A stretch of 64,000 bases of DNA, from positions 868,001 through 932,000 of the forward strand of contig NZ_CM001377.1 in assembly GCF_000237825.1 (NCBI RefSeq), written 5' to 3'. The notes beneath the pieces are model-generated. The model saw nothing but the letters and a program-made list of their open reading frames with translations. It had not been told where the DNA came from and searched no databases. The stretch is from Thermanaerovibrio velox DSM 12556. Its GTDB lineage: Bacteria; Synergistota; Synergistia; Synergistales; Synergistaceae. How positions within the stretch are numbered: the first letter of the stretch is position 1; the number at the start of each line of letters is the position of its first letter. The position numbers were made by a program, and so were the translations under genes. Below, piece by piece: positions 39,960-46,292 of this stretch.

Positions 39960-40871
39960 GTGGGATACCGGCTTACTAGAAACTACAAAAAGCGAAATCA
40001 AGGTGGGTTGGCCACAAAGATAGTGATAGCTTTTACCGCTTTAGTTGCACTTGGAATATTGATTTCTGGGGTGAAATACTTTGCAACTCAGTGGTTACCT
40101 AGCGATAACTACCAGTCCGATCAACGGTATGAACAGGAAGTTCCACCCCAGGTAGACCTTAATGGTGACTTATCAACCAAAGGTAATGAATCGCGGGGCT
40201 ATGATGAAGGGGTACAAAATCTCGCTACCCCACTGCCCAATGTTGCAAAAGCCAAACCTTCTAGTTCCGTGTCGTCGCCGGTAAGTACGGAATCAAGCTC
40301 TAAGTCAAATTATGACAAGGTTAAGGGCAAGCCTAAAGCGTCAACCGCCATTCAGCTGGCTTCACCGGTGGAAGAGACATCCAAAACCCAGCTGAAAACA
40401 CCCCCTAAAGCTAAAGTATCGCCAACTTCGTCAGAGGAAAAGGCTAAAGAAGAAAAAGCAAAAAAGGAAAAGAATACGTCTCAAGAGAGAACTCAAGAAG
40501 GCAGCCCTAAGGCATCTGAGCCTACTAAAACATTACCATCTAAATCTTCACCTAAGGAGAGCACAAGCACGACCGAAAGGGCTGGTGGTTCTGGTTCGTC
40601 CGGTCATAGCCAGAAGGAAGGTTCCAACAATACTTTTATGGTTCAGGTGGGGGCTTTCTCATCGTTAGACGGAGCTAAGGCGCTCCTGGAAAAATTGAAG
40701 AAAGACGGGGTGGAAGCCACGTTGCAGGAGGCCAGCGTATCGGATAAAAAGTTCTTCCGGGTAAGGGTTCCTGTGGAGGGGGACCGTTCAAAGGCGGACG
40801 AGGAGGCCTCCAGGCTTGCGAAGATGGGCTATCCTACTCAGGTTATACCGCCTAAGGGGGAGACAAAATAA
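39960..40871 (+). CDS. SPOR-domain membrane protein
   Basis: A roughly 303-residue bitopic protein. A basic N-terminus and one membrane helix (about 20-38) precede a 170-residue low-complexity linker rich in Ser, Lys, Thr and Pro. The C-terminal SPOR domain (TFMVQVGAFSSLDGAKALLE to QVIPPKG, last ~75 residues) binds denuded septal glycan. It probably sits at the division site, like FtsN-type proteins, which fits its place after ftsZ. A GTG at 39960 has ggggga upstream; a TTG/ATG pair at 39939-39945 is an alternative. The linker region is more AT-rich than its neighbours. Confidence 0.82.
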   Translation: MGYRLTRNYKKRNQGGLATKIVIAFTALVALGILISGVKYFATQWLPSDNYQSDQRYEQEVPPQVDLNGDLSTKGNESRGYDEGVQNLATPLPNVAKAKPSSSVSSPVSTESSSKSNYDKVKGKPKASTAIQLASPVEETSKTQLKTPPKAKVSPTSSEEKAKEEKAKKEKNTSQERTQEGSPKASEPTKTLPSKSSPKESTSTTERAGGSGSSGHSQKEGSNNTFMVQVGAFSSLDGAKALLEKLKKDGVEATLQEASVSDKKFFRVRVPVEGDRSKADEEASRLAKMGYPTQVIPPKGETK

Positions 40872-42091
40872 TGTGCCCCATAGGTTCGCTAATGGATAGG
40901 CAAGACGCAGTGCATGCCATGGTAAGTGCAGCTAAACTTGAGGTCCCGGTTGAAGATGTACCGCTTGGAAAATCTACTAATCGAATACTAGGTTGTGATG
41001 TCCGTTGTAAGTTGGATCTGCCCCCTTTTGATAGGAGCCTTAGAGACGGTTATGCGGTAAGGTCCGATGACCTTATGGGGGCATCCTCCGGGTCGCCTTC
41101 CTTCCTTAACGTGGTGGGTGAGGTGCCTGTTGGTGGGGTTCCAGACTTCAAGATCCCTCAACAGGGAGCAGCGGTTATACATACCGGGGGTATGCTGCCA
41201 GATGGTGCGGACTGTGTGGCGATGCTAGAAGACACGTCATTGGTTGGTTCCATTCTGGAAGTTCGCAGGGCCCTCCAGAGGGGTGAAAACGTGGTGTTCA
41301 AGGGGGAGGAGGCCCCTGCTGGTTCTGTCGTGCTTGGGAGGGGGACGCTGCTCTCTGAAGCCCACGTGGGGCTCCTCGCTTCTCAGGGTATCAAGGATGT
41401 CCCGTGTCTTGGGTTAAGGTCTTGTGTGTTTAGTAGCGGTGATGAGATAAAACCAGTTGGAGAGGCAATTCCATACGGTATGCTTTATGATGTAAACGGA
41501 TGGTTTATCTGTTCAGCCTTGAGCCGCATAGGCATCGAATCTTCTTACGGTGGGATACTCGAGGACAGAGCCGTTAACATAAGGGAAAAGATCCGAGATG
41601 CCATGGAATGGGCTCATGTGATCATCATTAGTGGAGGATCCTCGATAAGCGTAAGAGATCACTTGGAAGAGGTATTTTCAACGTTTGATCATCCTGGTTT
41701 GATAGTTAGAGGCATCAACGTTCAGCCTGGCAAACCACTGTTGGGAGCGGTAACTGGATCTCCTGCACGAGTAGTCCTTGGCCTGCCGGGACATCCCTTG
41801 TCCTGTGCAACGTCTTTTTACACCTTTGTTACTCCTATGCTTGAAATGATGTTTGGGGGCAGCGGATGGAACGTGAAAACCCTGAAGATCTCCCTTGCTG
41901 AGGATTTACCAGCCAGGTCTGGGATTGAGGAGTTCGTCCCCGGTAAGATATGTGATGATGGTGTTGTACCTATTTTTTCAGCCTCCAGTTACAGCGGTGT
42001 CCTTGCAAATTGTGACGGTCTCATAAGGGTTCCTAAGGACAGGGAGACCCTTCGTAGAAGGGAGACGGTTGACCTTTGGATGATTCGATGA
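40871..42091 (+). CDS. moeA: molybdopterin molybdotransferase MoeA
   Basis: A 406-residue enzyme that inserts molybdate into adenylated molybdopterin. PFDRSLRDGYAV is the N-terminal dimer/active-site segment and VVLGLPGHPLSCATSFYTFV the conserved C-terminal block; SGGSSISVRDHL lies between. The ATG overlaps the upstream stop (TAATG), and gggggag lies eight bases upstream. It is followed by a second, fused MoeA. Confidence 0.93.
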   Translation: MCPIGSLMDRQDAVHAMVSAAKLEVPVEDVPLGKSTNRILGCDVRCKLDLPPFDRSLRDGYAVRSDDLMGASSGSPSFLNVVGEVPVGGVPDFKIPQQGAAVIHTGGMLPDGADCVAMLEDTSLVGSILEVRRALQRGENVVFKGEEAPAGSVVLGRGTLLSEAHVGLLASQGIKDVPCLGLRSCVFSSGDEIKPVGEAIPYGMLYDVNGWFICSALSRIGIESSYGGILEDRAVNIREKIRDAMEWAHVIIISGGSSISVRDHLEEVFSTFDHPGLIVRGINVQPGKPLLGAVTGSPARVVLGLPGHPLSCATSFYTFVTPMLEMMFGGSGWNVKTLKISLAEDLPARSGIEEFVPGKICDDGVVPIFSASSYSGVLANCDGLIRVPKDRETLRRRETVDLWMIR

Positions 42092-43974
42092 GGAGCAGGG
42101 AGCATATATCAAGAGAGGAAGCTTTGATGATGTTAATGGCCCATTTCTCCCCTATGGGGGTGAAAAAGGTGCCTACCCGTTCATCGGTTGGATTGATACT
42201 GGGGGAAAACGTCTTTGCCCGCTTGAACATACCCAATTCCGTGGTTTCTGCGGTGGACGGATATGCGGTGCTTTCGGAATCTACCGCCAACGCTAGCCCA
42301 CAAAGGCCTGTGGTACTTGAAAAACAAGGGTATGTTTGGGTCAATACCGGATCCATGGTGCCACCGCCTTTTGATTCCGTGGTAATGGTGGAGGATGTCT
42401 CCCGCTGGGATGATGGGACCGTGGTGGTTTATAGGGCGTCACCCAAGGGGCAGAACCTTAGATACCTTGGGGAAGATGTGATGTCTAACCAGCTTTTGGC
42501 CTTTGAGGGAGATCAGATAACTCCTCAGCTGGCCTCCCTTCTAATAAGCGCTGGTGTTTTGGAGTTAAAAGCTATACCAAAGCCGAGGATATTATTTATA
42601 CCCACAGGGGAAGAGATAGTAGGCGATGATGCGTTAATTAATGGCATTATGAAACCAGGTGATGTTCTAGAGAGCAACTCAATATTGGTTACCGGGTATC
42701 TTGAAAGATGCGGCTACCGAGTGGATGTTCACAGCTCTATCCTGTCCGATAACGTTGATGAGCTTAGAGGTGTGCTTAAAAGGGCCGTAATGGATGATTA
42801 TCATGTGATATTGATATCTGGTGGTTCCGCTAAGGGCCTAAGAGATGTGTCGGCGGAGGCCCTAAAGGATGGGCTTCTGTTCCGTTGGCTGCTTATGAAG
42901 CCTGGGCGACCTGCCATAGGGGCTTCCTTTGATGGATGTCCGGTCATTGTGTTGCCAGGGTTCCCCTCATCCTCATTAGTAGTGCTTCTCACTGTCGTAG
43001 TGCCTTTCCTTAATCATCTGTCCGGCAAGCCGCCGATGACCTACTTTGAGTCCCTTGACATTGAACCTTGGGAGACCCAGTTACTTCATCGCATGTCCTC
43101 ATCTCCGGGCATGGAGGAGTGGGTCAAGGCTAAGGTGGTGAAGATGGGGGATCAAGCCTTGCTTTGGCCCCTTGGCGGCGGTTCAAGTTCCTTGTTCTCC
43201 CTTGGGGAGGCAGACGGATTGGCTTGCATACCAAGTAGTTCCGTTGAGCTTGATAAGGGAGATAAGGTACGGTTCTATCCGCTCGTTCATCTCGACCTCG
43301 CCAGGCGTTGCCTATTACAGGGGTCTGATGATCCGGCCCTGCAAATGCTTGCTGCGATTGCTAAGGGAAAGGGCGGAGAAGTTGTGGTTAAGAGGACTGG
43401 TAGCATGGGAGGGGTATTGGCCCTCGCAAGAGGGGAGGCTCATGCCGCTACCTGTCACATTTTGGACCCTGACACTGGTATTTACAACGATCCGCTGATA
43501 AAGAGACTTGACCCCCACGGGTTGTGGTGTAGAACGATACTTTTCTATCGGGAGCAAGGGTTTATTCTGGCAAGGGGCAATCCTAGGGGTGTGAAGGGCA
43601 TCAGAGATCTGGTTAGAGATGACATAAGGATAGTTAACAGGCAGCCTGGTGCTGGGACCAGGATACTTCTTGACCATCTCCTTGAGAAGGATGGCATCTC
43701 GAGGGACGGAGTCAAGGGATATAACGATCTTTGTGTCTCTCACTTGGATGCTGCTGCCAGAGTCCTTGCAGGTGCTGCTGATGTGGCTTTGGGGGTGAAA
43801 AGTGCGGCTGATGCTCTGGGATTGGATTTCATCCCCATAGCGGAGGAGCCGTATGAACTGGTGTATCATTCGGCCTATTTGGATCATCCTGGGATAATGG
43901 CGCTTATGGAGGCTGCGTTGGATCCCAAGTGGCGTTCGATTGTTGATAGAATGGGGGGGTATAGGTGGCCCTGA
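42076..43974 (+). CDS. MoeA fused to a C-terminal periplasmic-binding-protein-like domain
   Basis: A 632-residue two-part protein. Residues about 10-405 are a second MoeA paralogue (NIPNSVVSAVDGYAV, SGGSAKGLRDVSAE, LPGFPSSSLVVLL). From about residue 412 it becomes a PBP/LysR-substrate-binding-like domain (GSDDPALQMLAAI, GSMGGVLALARGEAHAA, IVNRQPGAGTRILLD, LGVKSAADALGLDFIPI). Fusions of this kind occur in anaerobes and archaea, and the binding domain may sense or hand over molybdate or tungstate; that role is inference. No signal peptide is present, so the domain is cytoplasmic. It overlaps moeA by 16 bases; an ATG at 42088 overlapping the moeA stop is an alternative start. Confidence 0.85.
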   Translation: MDDSMRSREHISREEALMMLMAHFSPMGVKKVPTRSSVGLILGENVFARLNIPNSVVSAVDGYAVLSESTANASPQRPVVLEKQGYVWVNTGSMVPPPFDSVVMVEDVSRWDDGTVVVYRASPKGQNLRYLGEDVMSNQLLAFEGDQITPQLASLLISAGVLELKAIPKPRILFIPTGEEIVGDDALINGIMKPGDVLESNSILVTGYLERCGYRVDVHSSILSDNVDELRGVLKRAVMDDYHVILISGGSAKGLRDVSAEALKDGLLFRWLLMKPGRPAIGASFDGCPVIVLPGFPSSSLVVLLTVVVPFLNHLSGKPPMTYFESLDIEPWETQLLHRMSSSPGMEEWVKAKVVKMGDQALLWPLGGGSSSLFSLGEADGLACIPSSSVELDKGDKVRFYPLVHLDLARRCLLQGSDDPALQMLAAIAKGKGGEVVVKRTGSMGGVLALARGEAHAATCHILDPDTGIYNDPLIKRLDPHGLWCRTILFYREQGFILARGNPRGVKGIRDLVRDDIRIVNRQPGAGTRILLDHLLEKDGISRDGVKGYNDLCVSHLDAAARVLAGAADVALGVKSAADALGLDFIPIAEEPYELVYHSAYLDHPGIMALMEAALDPKWRSIVDRMGGYRWP

Positions 43975-44936
43975 CGGATAGTTATCTTAGAAACATAAAC
44001 TACGTAAGGATCTCTGTGACCGATAGGTGTAATTTTCGCTGCCGCTACTGTATGCCGGAGGATGGGGTCCCGCTTTTGGATCACAGGGACATAATGTCTT
44101 ATGAGGAGCTCGCGTTATTATGTCAGGCTCTCCAGGACCTTGGGGTAAAAAAGATTCGCTTTACGGGAGGAGAGCCTCTGGTGAGACGGGGCTTTCTGGA
44201 TTTTCTCTCCTCTCTGAAAGGTCTTCTGCCCAATCTCAAGATAGCCCTTACAACAAATGGGGCTATGTTGGGCCAGGAGGCACAAAGAATAGCTGAGATT
44301 GGCATATCGGGGCTGAACGTGAGCTTAGATACCATAGATCCAGAGAAATTTCGCTACATCACGAGAAACGGGGATCTCCAAGGGGTTTTGAACGGCATGA
44401 GGATGGTTCGGGATCTCGGTCTTAGGTCTATAAAAGTTAATACGGTGCTCATAAGGTCCTTTAACGACATGGAGGTACCGGCCCTTTTGGATTTCTGTGC
44501 CAAGAATGACTATCTTTTGCGTTTAATAGAGTTCATGCCCCTTGACGATGGACTTTGGAGCAAGGATAGCTTCATATCCGCCGATGAAATCCTCGGGAGG
44601 GTTTCATCTGGTTATCGTTGGGTTCCATCCTCAACCGGCGAAGAGGTAATGGGTCCCGCCAAATACTATCGTGATCTGGAAACTGGTCAGAGGATTGGGA
44701 TAATCTCTTCCGTGTCCAGCCATTTCTGTTCCCATTGTAATAGGGTTAGGATCAGCGCATCCGGCAGGCTGAGGGCTTGTTTGTTTGCCAGGGAAGAAAC
44801 GGACCTCAGACCCTTCCTTTTGAAAGGGGATTTTGAGGGCCTCAAGGATATTATAGTCAAGGCGGTAAGTGCAAAACCCCGTTGTTGGGAGGACGTTATA
44901 ACCGGAGACCTCCACATGTCTCAGATAGGAGGATGA
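43965..44936 (+). CDS. moaA: GTP 3',8-cyclase MoaA
   Basis: A 323-residue radical SAM enzyme of the first molybdopterin step. C22, C26 and C29 (TDRCNFRCRYC) bind the SAM cluster. FCSHCNRVRISASGRLRACLF (given here in part) carries the second, GTP-binding cluster. The C-terminus ends in GG, the activating Gly-Gly tail. FTGGEPLVRRG is also present. The GTG start overlaps the previous gene by ten bases. Confidence 0.96.
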   Translation: MALTDSYLRNINYVRISVTDRCNFRCRYCMPEDGVPLLDHRDIMSYEELALLCQALQDLGVKKIRFTGGEPLVRRGFLDFLSSLKGLLPNLKIALTTNGAMLGQEAQRIAEIGISGLNVSLDTIDPEKFRYITRNGDLQGVLNGMRMVRDLGLRSIKVNTVLIRSFNDMEVPALLDFCAKNDYLLRLIEFMPLDDGLWSKDSFISADEILGRVSSGYRWVPSSTGEEVMGPAKYYRDLETGQRIGIISSVSSHFCSHCNRVRISASGRLRACLFAREETDLRPFLLKGDFEGLKDIIVKAVSAKPRCWEDVITGDLHMSQIGG

Positions 44937-44946
44937 GAACATCGTC

Positions 44947-45456
44947 ATGAGCTCATTTACCCACCTGGATGAATACGGAAGACCTCAGATGGTAGACGTA
45001 GGAGGCAAAGGTCCTAGCGTAAGGAAGGCATGGGCGGAAGCTAGGATATGCCTTACCGATGTCATCGTTAAAGCCTTGTTGGAGGGTGGTGTTCCTAAGG
45101 GTGAGCCTTTCACTGTTGCTGAACTGGCGGGGATAATGGGGGCCAAGCAGACCCCATATCTTATTCCCCTTTGTCACCCAATAAAGATAGACGGCGTGTC
45201 CGTCCGCTGCACGCTGGATGAAGAGGCTAAAGAGGTGATTGTTACAGGTGTCGTCTCTGCCAGTGATGTGACTGGAGTGGAAATGGAAGCTCTTATGTCG
45301 GTTAGCGTAGCGGCCCTGGCTTTTTACGATATGTGCAAGGCCTTGGACAAGGGCATGGAGATTAGATCTATAAGGCTTTTGAGAAAAACTGGGGGGAAGA
45401 GCGGGGATTGGACTTCCCCGTCGGTTCCCCAGGAGAGGCTGGGTGATCTCAAGTGA
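44947..45456 (+). CDS. moaC: cyclic pyranopterin monophosphate synthase MoaC
   Basis: This 169-residue enzyme acts after MoaA. MVDVGGK near the N-terminus, LIPLCHPIKIDGV, and VTGVEMEALMSVSVAALAFYDM (in part) with KALDK match the family. The catalytic lysine and aspartate lie in the KALDKGM segment region. Its end overlaps the mogA-like gene by four bases. Confidence 0.95.
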   Translation: MSSFTHLDEYGRPQMVDVGGKGPSVRKAWAEARICLTDVIVKALLEGGVPKGEPFTVAELAGIMGAKQTPYLIPLCHPIKIDGVSVRCTLDEEAKEVIVTGVVSASDVTGVEMEALMSVSVAALAFYDMCKALDKGMEIRSIRLLRKTGGKSGDWTSPSVPQERLGDLK

Positions 45457-46292
45457 ATTCAAGGCTGATTAGGATATGCTGGAACTTGGCAGAGGATCTT
45501 CCCATGGCCTACATACACATGGGCAGTTCAGGGGATGCCCTATGTAACGGTGAGCCGTCAAAAATAACGCTTGCCTTCCCCGGTGAACCCTTGGACTTTG
45601 ACAAGGGGGAAGAATCGGGAGGATTAAAACTAAACCCTCTCCATCTGGTCGTGTCTGGGCTTAATAGGGATTCTATCAAATCAAGGGTTTTTGTGGCTTT
45701 TGGCGATGGCGGAGCTGTTCTTAGGTTGGGAGAGGGGAAGAGGTTAGAGGTAGTATCCCCTGGATTCATCGCGGTTTCTCAGAGATTTAAGCTGTGGGAG
45801 CCTATAACAACAGGGGTGCTTACCATAAGTGATAAAGGAGCAAGAGGTGAGAGGGAGGATACCGCTGGTCCTGCTTTGGCGGAAAGGGCTCTGTGTATAG
45901 GAGCTGAGGTCATAAAAAGGGACGTTGTCCCTGATGACGTGGAGATGATAAGGGATAAAGTGTTGAACTGGGGCAGGGAAGGTATCGAACTGATACTTTG
46001 CACAGGTGGTACCGGCTTATCTCCCCGGGACGTGACCCCTGATGCGATCATGGGAATCGCGGATAAATTGGTTCCTGGTTTTGGGGAGATGATGAGGATA
46101 AAAACCAGCCATGCAAACCCGAGGTCCTTCCTGTCTAGGGGCATTGGGGCATTGGTGGGCAAAACACTGGTCTTGACGTTCCCAGGGAGCAGAAGAGGGG
46201 CTCTGGAGTGCTTTGAAGCTGTAGAAGAAGGTATAAGGCATGGGGTTGAGATAGCCAATGGCAGGGCCATGGAGTGCGGTAATCACGGCTGA
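45453..46292 (+). CDS. mogA: MogA/MoaB-type molybdopterin adenylyltransferase with an unrecognised N-terminal domain
   Basis: A 279-residue protein. The C-terminal ~160 residues are a MogA domain that adenylates molybdopterin: LTISDKGARGEREDTAGP, LILCTGGTGLSPRDVTPDA and HANPRSFLSRGIGALVGKTL (part). The first ~115 residues are extra. They are beta-rich in appearance and contain VFVAFGDGGAVLRLGEGKRLEVV; I do not recognise a MOSC or other named domain. The GTG start overlaps the moaC stop (GTGA). An internal ATG at 45504 has an agagga SD but would only shorten the extra domain. Confidence 0.85.
   Translation: MNSRLIRICWNLAEDLPMAYIHMGSSGDALCNGEPSKITLAFPGEPLDFDKGEESGGLKLNPLHLVVSGLNRDSIKSRVFVAFGDGGAVLRLGEGKRLEVVSPGFIAVSQRFKLWEPITTGVLTISDKGARGEREDTAGPALAERALCIGAEVIKRDVVPDDVEMIRDKVLNWGREGIELILCTGGTGLSPRDVTPDAIMGIADKLVPGFGEMMRIKTSHANPRSFLSRGIGALVGKTLVLTFPGSRRGALECFEAVEEGIRHGVEIANGRAMECGNHG

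Follow-up and report, generated by a model that had tools for sequence, protein, structure and literature searches.

A mogA gene with an additional N-terminal domain

The window analyzed here is a 64,000-nucleotide stretch of the genome of Thermanaerovibrio velox DSM 12556. Its forward strand carries an operon of five genes, two of them for MoeA proteins, in which neighbors overlap or lie at most ~10 nt apart: a plain moeA (40871 to 42091; an ORF with a PF00994 match inside, at genome position 909426-909845), a moeA with a C-terminal PBP_like domain (42076 to 43974; PF03453, PF00994, PF03454, and PF12727), moaA (43965 to 44936; Radical_SAM and Mob_synth_C), moaC (44947 to 45456; PF01967, E 1.9e-48), and a gene for a MogA fusion protein (45453 to 46292).

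Based on the sequence, the last gene is a real ORF that starts with a GTG located 4 nt inside moaC, such that the two genes overlap by 4 nt at the moaC stop codon (45454 to 45456), and encodes a protein of 279 aa. PF00994 covers residues 121-257 only of this protein (E 9e-27; 94 bits, cut-off 26.6), and residues 1-117 had no match to a Pfam or NCBIfam model at E ≤ 1. The original prediction was that an unrecognized, β-rich domain translationally coupled to moaC precedes MogA at 45453-45820. The extra domain was borne out, as it is predicted to be folded and is conserved at the protein level, and so was the coupling (see also below). The predicted start also stands; the end does not, because the domain stops at approximately residue 117 (45803), and an end at 45820 would include roughly five residues of the first MogA strand. 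From here on, we refer to residues 1-117 (45453 to 45803, forward strand) as the N-domain; the AlphaFold2 model, the fold matches, and the profile A1 described below identify it as a probable degenerate MOSC-type β-barrel. Because the last 20 codons before the MogA core contain no ATG, GTG, or TTG and the domain is conserved, we ruled out that the N-domain is a start-site artifact with translation beginning at the core.

The remainder of the protein (residues 118-279 plus stop; 45804 to 46292, forward strand) is an intact MogA, predicted to function as a molybdopterin adenylyltransferase. This assignment is based on the PF00994 match, on the GGTG and RDVTP motifs, which are kept, and on G185-G188, R192, D193, T195, and P196, which are invariant in A3, a 63-row alignment from which nine near-duplicate or truncated rows were left out. 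The closest solved structures are MoaB, MogA, and gephyrin G, with a Z score of 26.2 to gephyrin G. In many MogA proteins of Synergistota, the C terminus consists of ECG with a histidine-rich tail after it (46250 to 46289 in the window), and 17 of 72 sequences have at least three His in the last 14 residues; this tail may bind metal.

Predicted fold of the N-domain

The AlphaFold2 model of the N-domain (pLDDT 90.6, pTM 0.86) contains predicted β-strands at residues 4-10, 18-23, 29-31, 34-41, 61-68, 80-83, 89-92, 97-102, 104-107, and 111-115. The full-length fusion was modeled with a pTM of 0.90, which would fit a fixed arrangement of the N-domain on MogA. Using VIA-align, the N-domain model matched the MOSC protein YuaD (1oru) with a Z score of 9.0 over 100 of 117 residues at an rmsd of 2.7, in an alignment that spans the whole length of the model, and YiiM (5yhh) with a Z score of 8.3 over 94 residues. 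Domain B of a pyruvate kinase (5wrp_B) had a Z score of 9.1 over 85 residues and, thus, tied with YuaD, so that the assignment to MOSC-type β-barrels, which is on the predicted model only, is shared with this domain. MoeA domains were absent among the ranked VIA-align matches listed for the N-domain. In a Foldseek search against the PDB, the first 30 rows were pyruvate kinases followed by YuaD (1oru; E 0.05, probability 0.99), and there was no match for the N-domain at E ≤ 0.001. In a viral protein library, the best two of 287 matches were a Moco sulfurase C-terminal protein (probability 0.99) and a MOSC protein (probability 0.84). It is reported for YiiM itself that Dali finds pyruvate-kinase domain B together with YuaD, and domain B is described there as having a barrel like that of YiiM while being functionally unrelated (PMC5818509). 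Therefore, hits to both are to be expected for a MOSC barrel.

The N-domain is conserved in front of MogA in Synergistota

To describe the distribution of the N-domain, we used the profile A1, which was built from 67 sequences and left out four MOSC proteins as well as one N-domain (L077) that is too divergent and forms a long branch. A1 had matches in 93 of 185 Synergistota genomes, once in each genome. In 92 of these, the match was directly in front of MogA; the remaining match (G027) was an open frame of 45 aa, and no MogA was detected in that genome. Accordingly, the same fusion does exist elsewhere, while no free-standing version was seen with A1 in the 185 genomes. The MogA core itself was found in 128 of the 185 genomes in a whole-protein search based on rows over ~90 bits. 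A plasmid search yielded MogA-core matches and, next to moaA in Cetobacterium, a single MOSC-like stretch that stands alone, and no full-length relative.

Reading 90 loci individually, we found the N-domain in 68 (the 67 sequences and L077), a MOSC domain in its position in 4, MoaC fused directly to MogA in 9, MogA starting at the core in 8, and no MogA in 1 (L117). The original prediction was also right in that MogA normally begins directly with its LTISD block. Among the 68 N-domain loci, for which we chose the starts, the start codon was ATG in 58, GTG in 9, and TTG in 1, and it overlapped the moaC stop in 53. The very divergent N-domain of L077 (3004 to 3840, forward strand) has an end that reads GYFADVLKSGSI and resembles the C-terminal motif of MOSC; with the models used, neither MOSC nor MoaE was detected in its genome (G036).

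In the GFxxVS motif of the N-domain, the G and the F are invariant (67/67). We computed dN/dS for 281 pairs, which are not independent, and list those with an N-domain dS of 0.1 to 1.5; the window and G172 were not used as a pair, since their N-domain dS of 2.2 is saturated. In the listed pairs, dN/dS was 0.07 to 0.52 for the N-domain vs 0.04 to 0.20 for the core wherever dS is unsaturated. The N-domain is under purifying selection and tolerates approximately twice as much change as the core.

MOSC domains occupy the position of the N-domain in sister families

In four genomes, MogA proteins of the families f11 and f12 have a PF03473 MOSC domain in front of MogA, and their genes are located just after moaC. 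Two of these MOSC domains score above the PF03473 gathering cut-off of 22.7 bits (L099, 28.6; L097, 32.1) and two below it (L098, 19.6; L096, 14.9), i.e., they display a graded decay. A contig search with the L099 protein returned its own record and one Heimdallarchaeota MogA only.

The N-domain itself is not detected by PF03473: residues 1-122 had no match at E ≤ 1, and three other N-domains had none at E ≤ 10. Aligned with the MOSC profile using hhalign, the N-domain had a probability of 18.6% (P 0.0013), which is insufficient to identify it as MOSC from sequence alone. The score of 24.2 was not reached by any of 100 column shuffles (highest, 19.2), and the reversed version scored 13.1. When MogA is included in the alignment, residues ~65-117 match the C-terminal half of MOSC with high confidence and in register up to and into the first MogA strand, and the junction between the N-domain and MogA aligns without gaps. 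For this full-length comparison, from which L077, L112, and L116 were left out (the last two are truncated at contig ends), the observed score was reached by none of 100 shuffles of residues 1-117, while 1 and 4 of 100 shuffles were as high when residues 1-110 and 1-102, respectively, were shuffled. Much of the sequence signal is, therefore, near the junction.

In a tree of MogA, the N-domain proteins and the MoaC-MogA fusions form one supported clade (100/95). The tree does not recover the MOSC-MogA proteins of f11 and f12 as sister to this clade; it included 30 hand-chosen loci of the 68 with an N-domain, and its group with C-terminal MOSC included L083, which carries MoaE. Because the tree leaves the f11 and f12 proteins unplaced, common descent of the N-domain and their MOSC extensions is likely rather than established. 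Taken together, the fold, the genomic position, and the weak profile similarity argue strongly that the N-domain is a degenerate MOSC domain. Thus, the original prediction that the domain belongs to no nameable family holds at the level of Pfam and NCBIfam, while its own proviso, that the domain might turn out to be a divergent MOSC, is what this evidence favors.

The N-domain lacks the features of an active MOSC domain

We compared the 67 N-domains with A4, an alignment of 37 Synergistota MOSC domains, in a joint alignment. Structural positions of MOSC are kept, i.e., G132 in 67, V128 in 53, and G85 in 50 of the 67 N-domains; the invariant G104 of the N-domain corresponds to the invariant Gly 132 of MOSC. 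The polar signature is lost, with K18 in 0, D35 in 4, H37 in 0, R43 in 6, E70 in 0, N71 in 1, and K102 in 1 of 67, and E51 is also absent in nearly all. The invariant cysteine of MOSC is reported to correspond to C119 of gsYiiM, and an N-terminal α-helix bundle is described as part of the canonical MOSC structure (PMC5818509). There was no column with a conserved Cys in the 67 N-domains (highest, 32/67), and the MOSC parts of the four f11 and f12 proteins contain 0, 0, 1, and 0 Cys. The AlphaFold2 model of the N-domain contains no helix bundle, only a three-residue helical turn at residues 72-74 and another at 94-96. Because the helix bundle, the cysteine, and the polar signature are lost, the N-domain is probably non-catalytic, and we class it as MOSC-derived and outside the MOSC family proper.

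MOSC is widespread and MoaE is rare in Synergistota

The genome of the window encodes three AOR proteins, one PF00384 protein, MoaA, MoaC, MogA, and MoeA, as well as two MoaD/ThiS-like proteins from genes next to AOR genes (G000:C1:1370029-1370286 and 706435-706611; at distances of 29 nt and ~90 nt). It has no MoaE (PF02391), while the positive control had matches in 11 of 14 named genomes. In Synergistota, PF02391 had matches in 3 of 185 genomes (3 of 115 good ones), namely, G002, G004, and G043. An alignment made from these three proteins found the same three and an implausible match in the genome of the window (E 0.002), inside a 1560-aa frame. The three proteins are short and below the NCBIfam cut-off for molybdopterin synthase, and we consider them putative MoaE proteins. 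In G002 and G004, the MOSC domain fused to MogA is of the decayed type (L096 and L098 being the decayed copies of these genomes). In G043, MoaE is fused to the C terminus of MogA (L083, 53 to 955, reverse strand; PF00994, 101.8 bits; PF02391, 34.4 bits); no other MogA-positive genome has MoaE while lacking a MOSC match. In four further MogA proteins that were tested, from the genera g37 and g38, the C terminus carries MOSC (40-51 bits); L083 falls inside the clade of these proteins in the MogA tree (98/96), although its exact position is weak (87/37).

MOSC was detected with the A4 model in 123 of 185 genomes, including 117 of the 128 MogA-positive ones. Among MogA-positive genomes that are at least 90% complete, 80 of 84 have MOSC, G043 has MoaE only, and G036, G039, and G177 have neither by the models used; these three are either real exceptions or reflect assembly gaps. 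A separate MOSC is present in 84 of the 92 N-domain genomes. An intact MOSC is fused to MogA in 16 genomes, i.e., at the C terminus in 14, based on a shared open frame, and at the N terminus in G003 and G005, and none of the 16 has a second MOSC. By comparison, 100 of 111 other genomes had a MOSC match, with G073 left out because its MOSC and MogA are adjacent but separate; the matches in G002 and G004 include the decayed fused copy, and each of these genomes also has a second, separate MOSC. The Fisher value for this comparison is 1.6e-13, in a test that ignores that 14 of the 16 genomes come from one clade.

In the genome of the window, one stand-alone MOSC gene (L164, 13815 to 14285) follows iscR-iscS-iscU, with its ATG 38 nt inside iscU; the operon (L164, 11662 to 14285) encodes an Rrf2-type regulator, a cysteine desulfurase, IscU/NifU, and MOSC. 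Of 29 loci with a MOSC gene of this type (L123-L151), 22 have homologues of iscS and iscU in front of it and on its strand. The best NCBIfam model for the L164 protein is PRK14499 (181.5 bits vs 26.9 bits for the YiiM reductase model), both being below their cut-offs. A second type of MOSC, with a WCLLP motif, is encoded at L163 (8594 to 9043) beside a gene for a Fur-like regulator and near genes for Mrp-type ATPases, as named from sequence.

Origin and possible function of the N-domain

The best explanation overall, which we consider likely, is that a degenerate MOSC domain with a non-catalytic supporting role precedes an otherwise intact MogA. We weighed it against three alternatives. The N-domain could be an unrelated small β-barrel, e.g., of the type of pyruvate-kinase domain B, that Synergistota recruited a single time instead of MOSC and that forms a lid over the MogA site. 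The pyruvate kinases heading the Foldseek results, the 5wrp_B match, and the weak sequence similarity to MOSC are in agreement with this possibility. We nevertheless consider it unlikely: YuaD aligns at a tied Z score over more residues and the whole model, a recognizable MOSC is present in the same position in sister families, the junction aligns without gaps, and MOSC proteins were first and second in the viral protein library.

A MOSC-derived N-domain could, in turn, still be catalytic, as one half of a fused molybdopterin synthase (of the MOSC type or for sulfur transfer), or it could be a neutral leftover that is tolerated as a leader on MogA. The absence of MoaE from the genome of the window, the order moaC, N-domain, mogA, which corresponds to the place of the missing step in the pathway, and the intact MOSC domains fused to MogA in relatives lacking MoaE would suit a catalytic domain. 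This is very unlikely given that the eight polar residues (K18 to K102) are absent in nearly all of the 67 N-domains, that cysteine never exceeds 32 of 67 in a column, and that most N-domain genomes carry a separate MOSC. Consequently, a function in cofactor synthesis, as originally suggested, is plausible, but a catalytic one is improbable. As for a domain without any role, the N-domain does evolve about twice as fast as the core, and a short linker replaces it in the MoaC-MogA fusions of the same clade; its dN/dS, its confidently predicted fold, its retention in 92 genomes, and the invariant G and F of GFxxVS all speak against such a leftover, for which we see little chance.

What a degenerate MOSC domain would do on MogA can be proposed only tentatively, and we give the following idea somewhat less than even odds. 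The barrel would no longer catalyze and would instead serve MogA as an immobile lid or docking surface, helping to pass molybdopterin from its maker to the MogA adenylylation site. In a phylum that lacks MoaE, the maker would probably be the stand-alone MOSC protein. We can conceive that MOSC stands in for MoaE in Synergistota, but hold this with some doubt. MOSC is fused to, or encoded next to, the enzymes that flank the missing step in the pathway, and it is also encoded beside a sulfur source; its position therefore supports, without proving, a replacement of MoaE. A competing reading is that MOSC proteins, like YiiM, are only users of the completed cofactor and co-occur with the pathway for that reason. 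The fused MOSC domains of f11 and f12 are almost without cysteine, which argues against a YiiM-like enzyme there.

The scenario of MOSC in place of MoaE can be extended to an evolutionary one, which is speculative. The short MOSC protein would do the work of the large subunit of molybdopterin synthase, with sulfur coming from IscS/IscU and, possibly, from the MoaD-like proteins encoded beside AOR genes. MOSC would have been fused repeatedly to MogA, at the N terminus in f11 and f12 and at the C terminus in one clade of f6. In genomes that kept a separate MOSC, the fused copy would have decayed into a non-catalytic adaptor, giving rise to the N-domain of the window, and the G043 lineage would have put a MoaE-like domain back in the position where its relatives carry MOSC. 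If this is true, then the N-domain is a worn-down form of the partner that replaces MoaE.

That MOSC proteins may fulfill the function of MoaD/MoaE has been suggested in a one-sentence, untested remark on Dehalobacter (PMC4751268), and the incomplete synthase of Geobacter metallireducens is called unexplained elsewhere (PMC2700814). We found nothing in the open-access literature on a MOSC/MogA fusion or a replacement of MoaE in Synergistota. This phylum is a cleaner natural experiment, because nearly all of it lacks MoaE and MOSC occurs on either side of MogA, and the MoaE-like domain of G043, located where relatives carry MOSC, turns the printed remark into a direct biochemical test.

Comparison with known systems

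Pyruvate-kinase domain B is like the N-domain in its barrel fold (Z up to 9.1), but it aligns over a shorter length than YuaD and has no genomic link to it. Among the NCBIfam models, PRK14499, a MoaC/MOSC fusion, gives the highest scores for the stand-alone MOSC proteins in the genome of the window (181.5 and 74.2 bits) and for the MOSC part of f12 (100.8 bits), none of which reach its full-length cut-off of 457; the N-domain itself has no match to it. With MOSC domains of the YuaD/YiiM type (PF03473), the N-domain shares the predicted barrel, the position next to MogA in sister families, the register of the C-terminal strand, and a few structural glycines, and it differs from them in lacking a Pfam match, the helix bundle, the conserved cysteine, and the polar signature.

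Another close known arrangement is that of the MOSC-MogA/MoaB fusions, in which, as in the window, a MOSC-type domain is joined to a MogA/MoaB core. A rare, unstudied example named in the literature is UniProt A6BK61 (PMC10637980); in the fusion described here, the MOSC part is degenerate. The MOSC domain on MogA is intact and C-terminal in other Synergistota genera, unlike that of the window. Hence, the remark on MOSC in place of MoaD/MoaE (PMC4751268) and the existence of rare MOSC-MoaB fusions (PMC10637980) are already in print; the degenerate form of MOSC, its phylum-wide distribution, and the exchange of MOSC for MoaE on MogA are added here.
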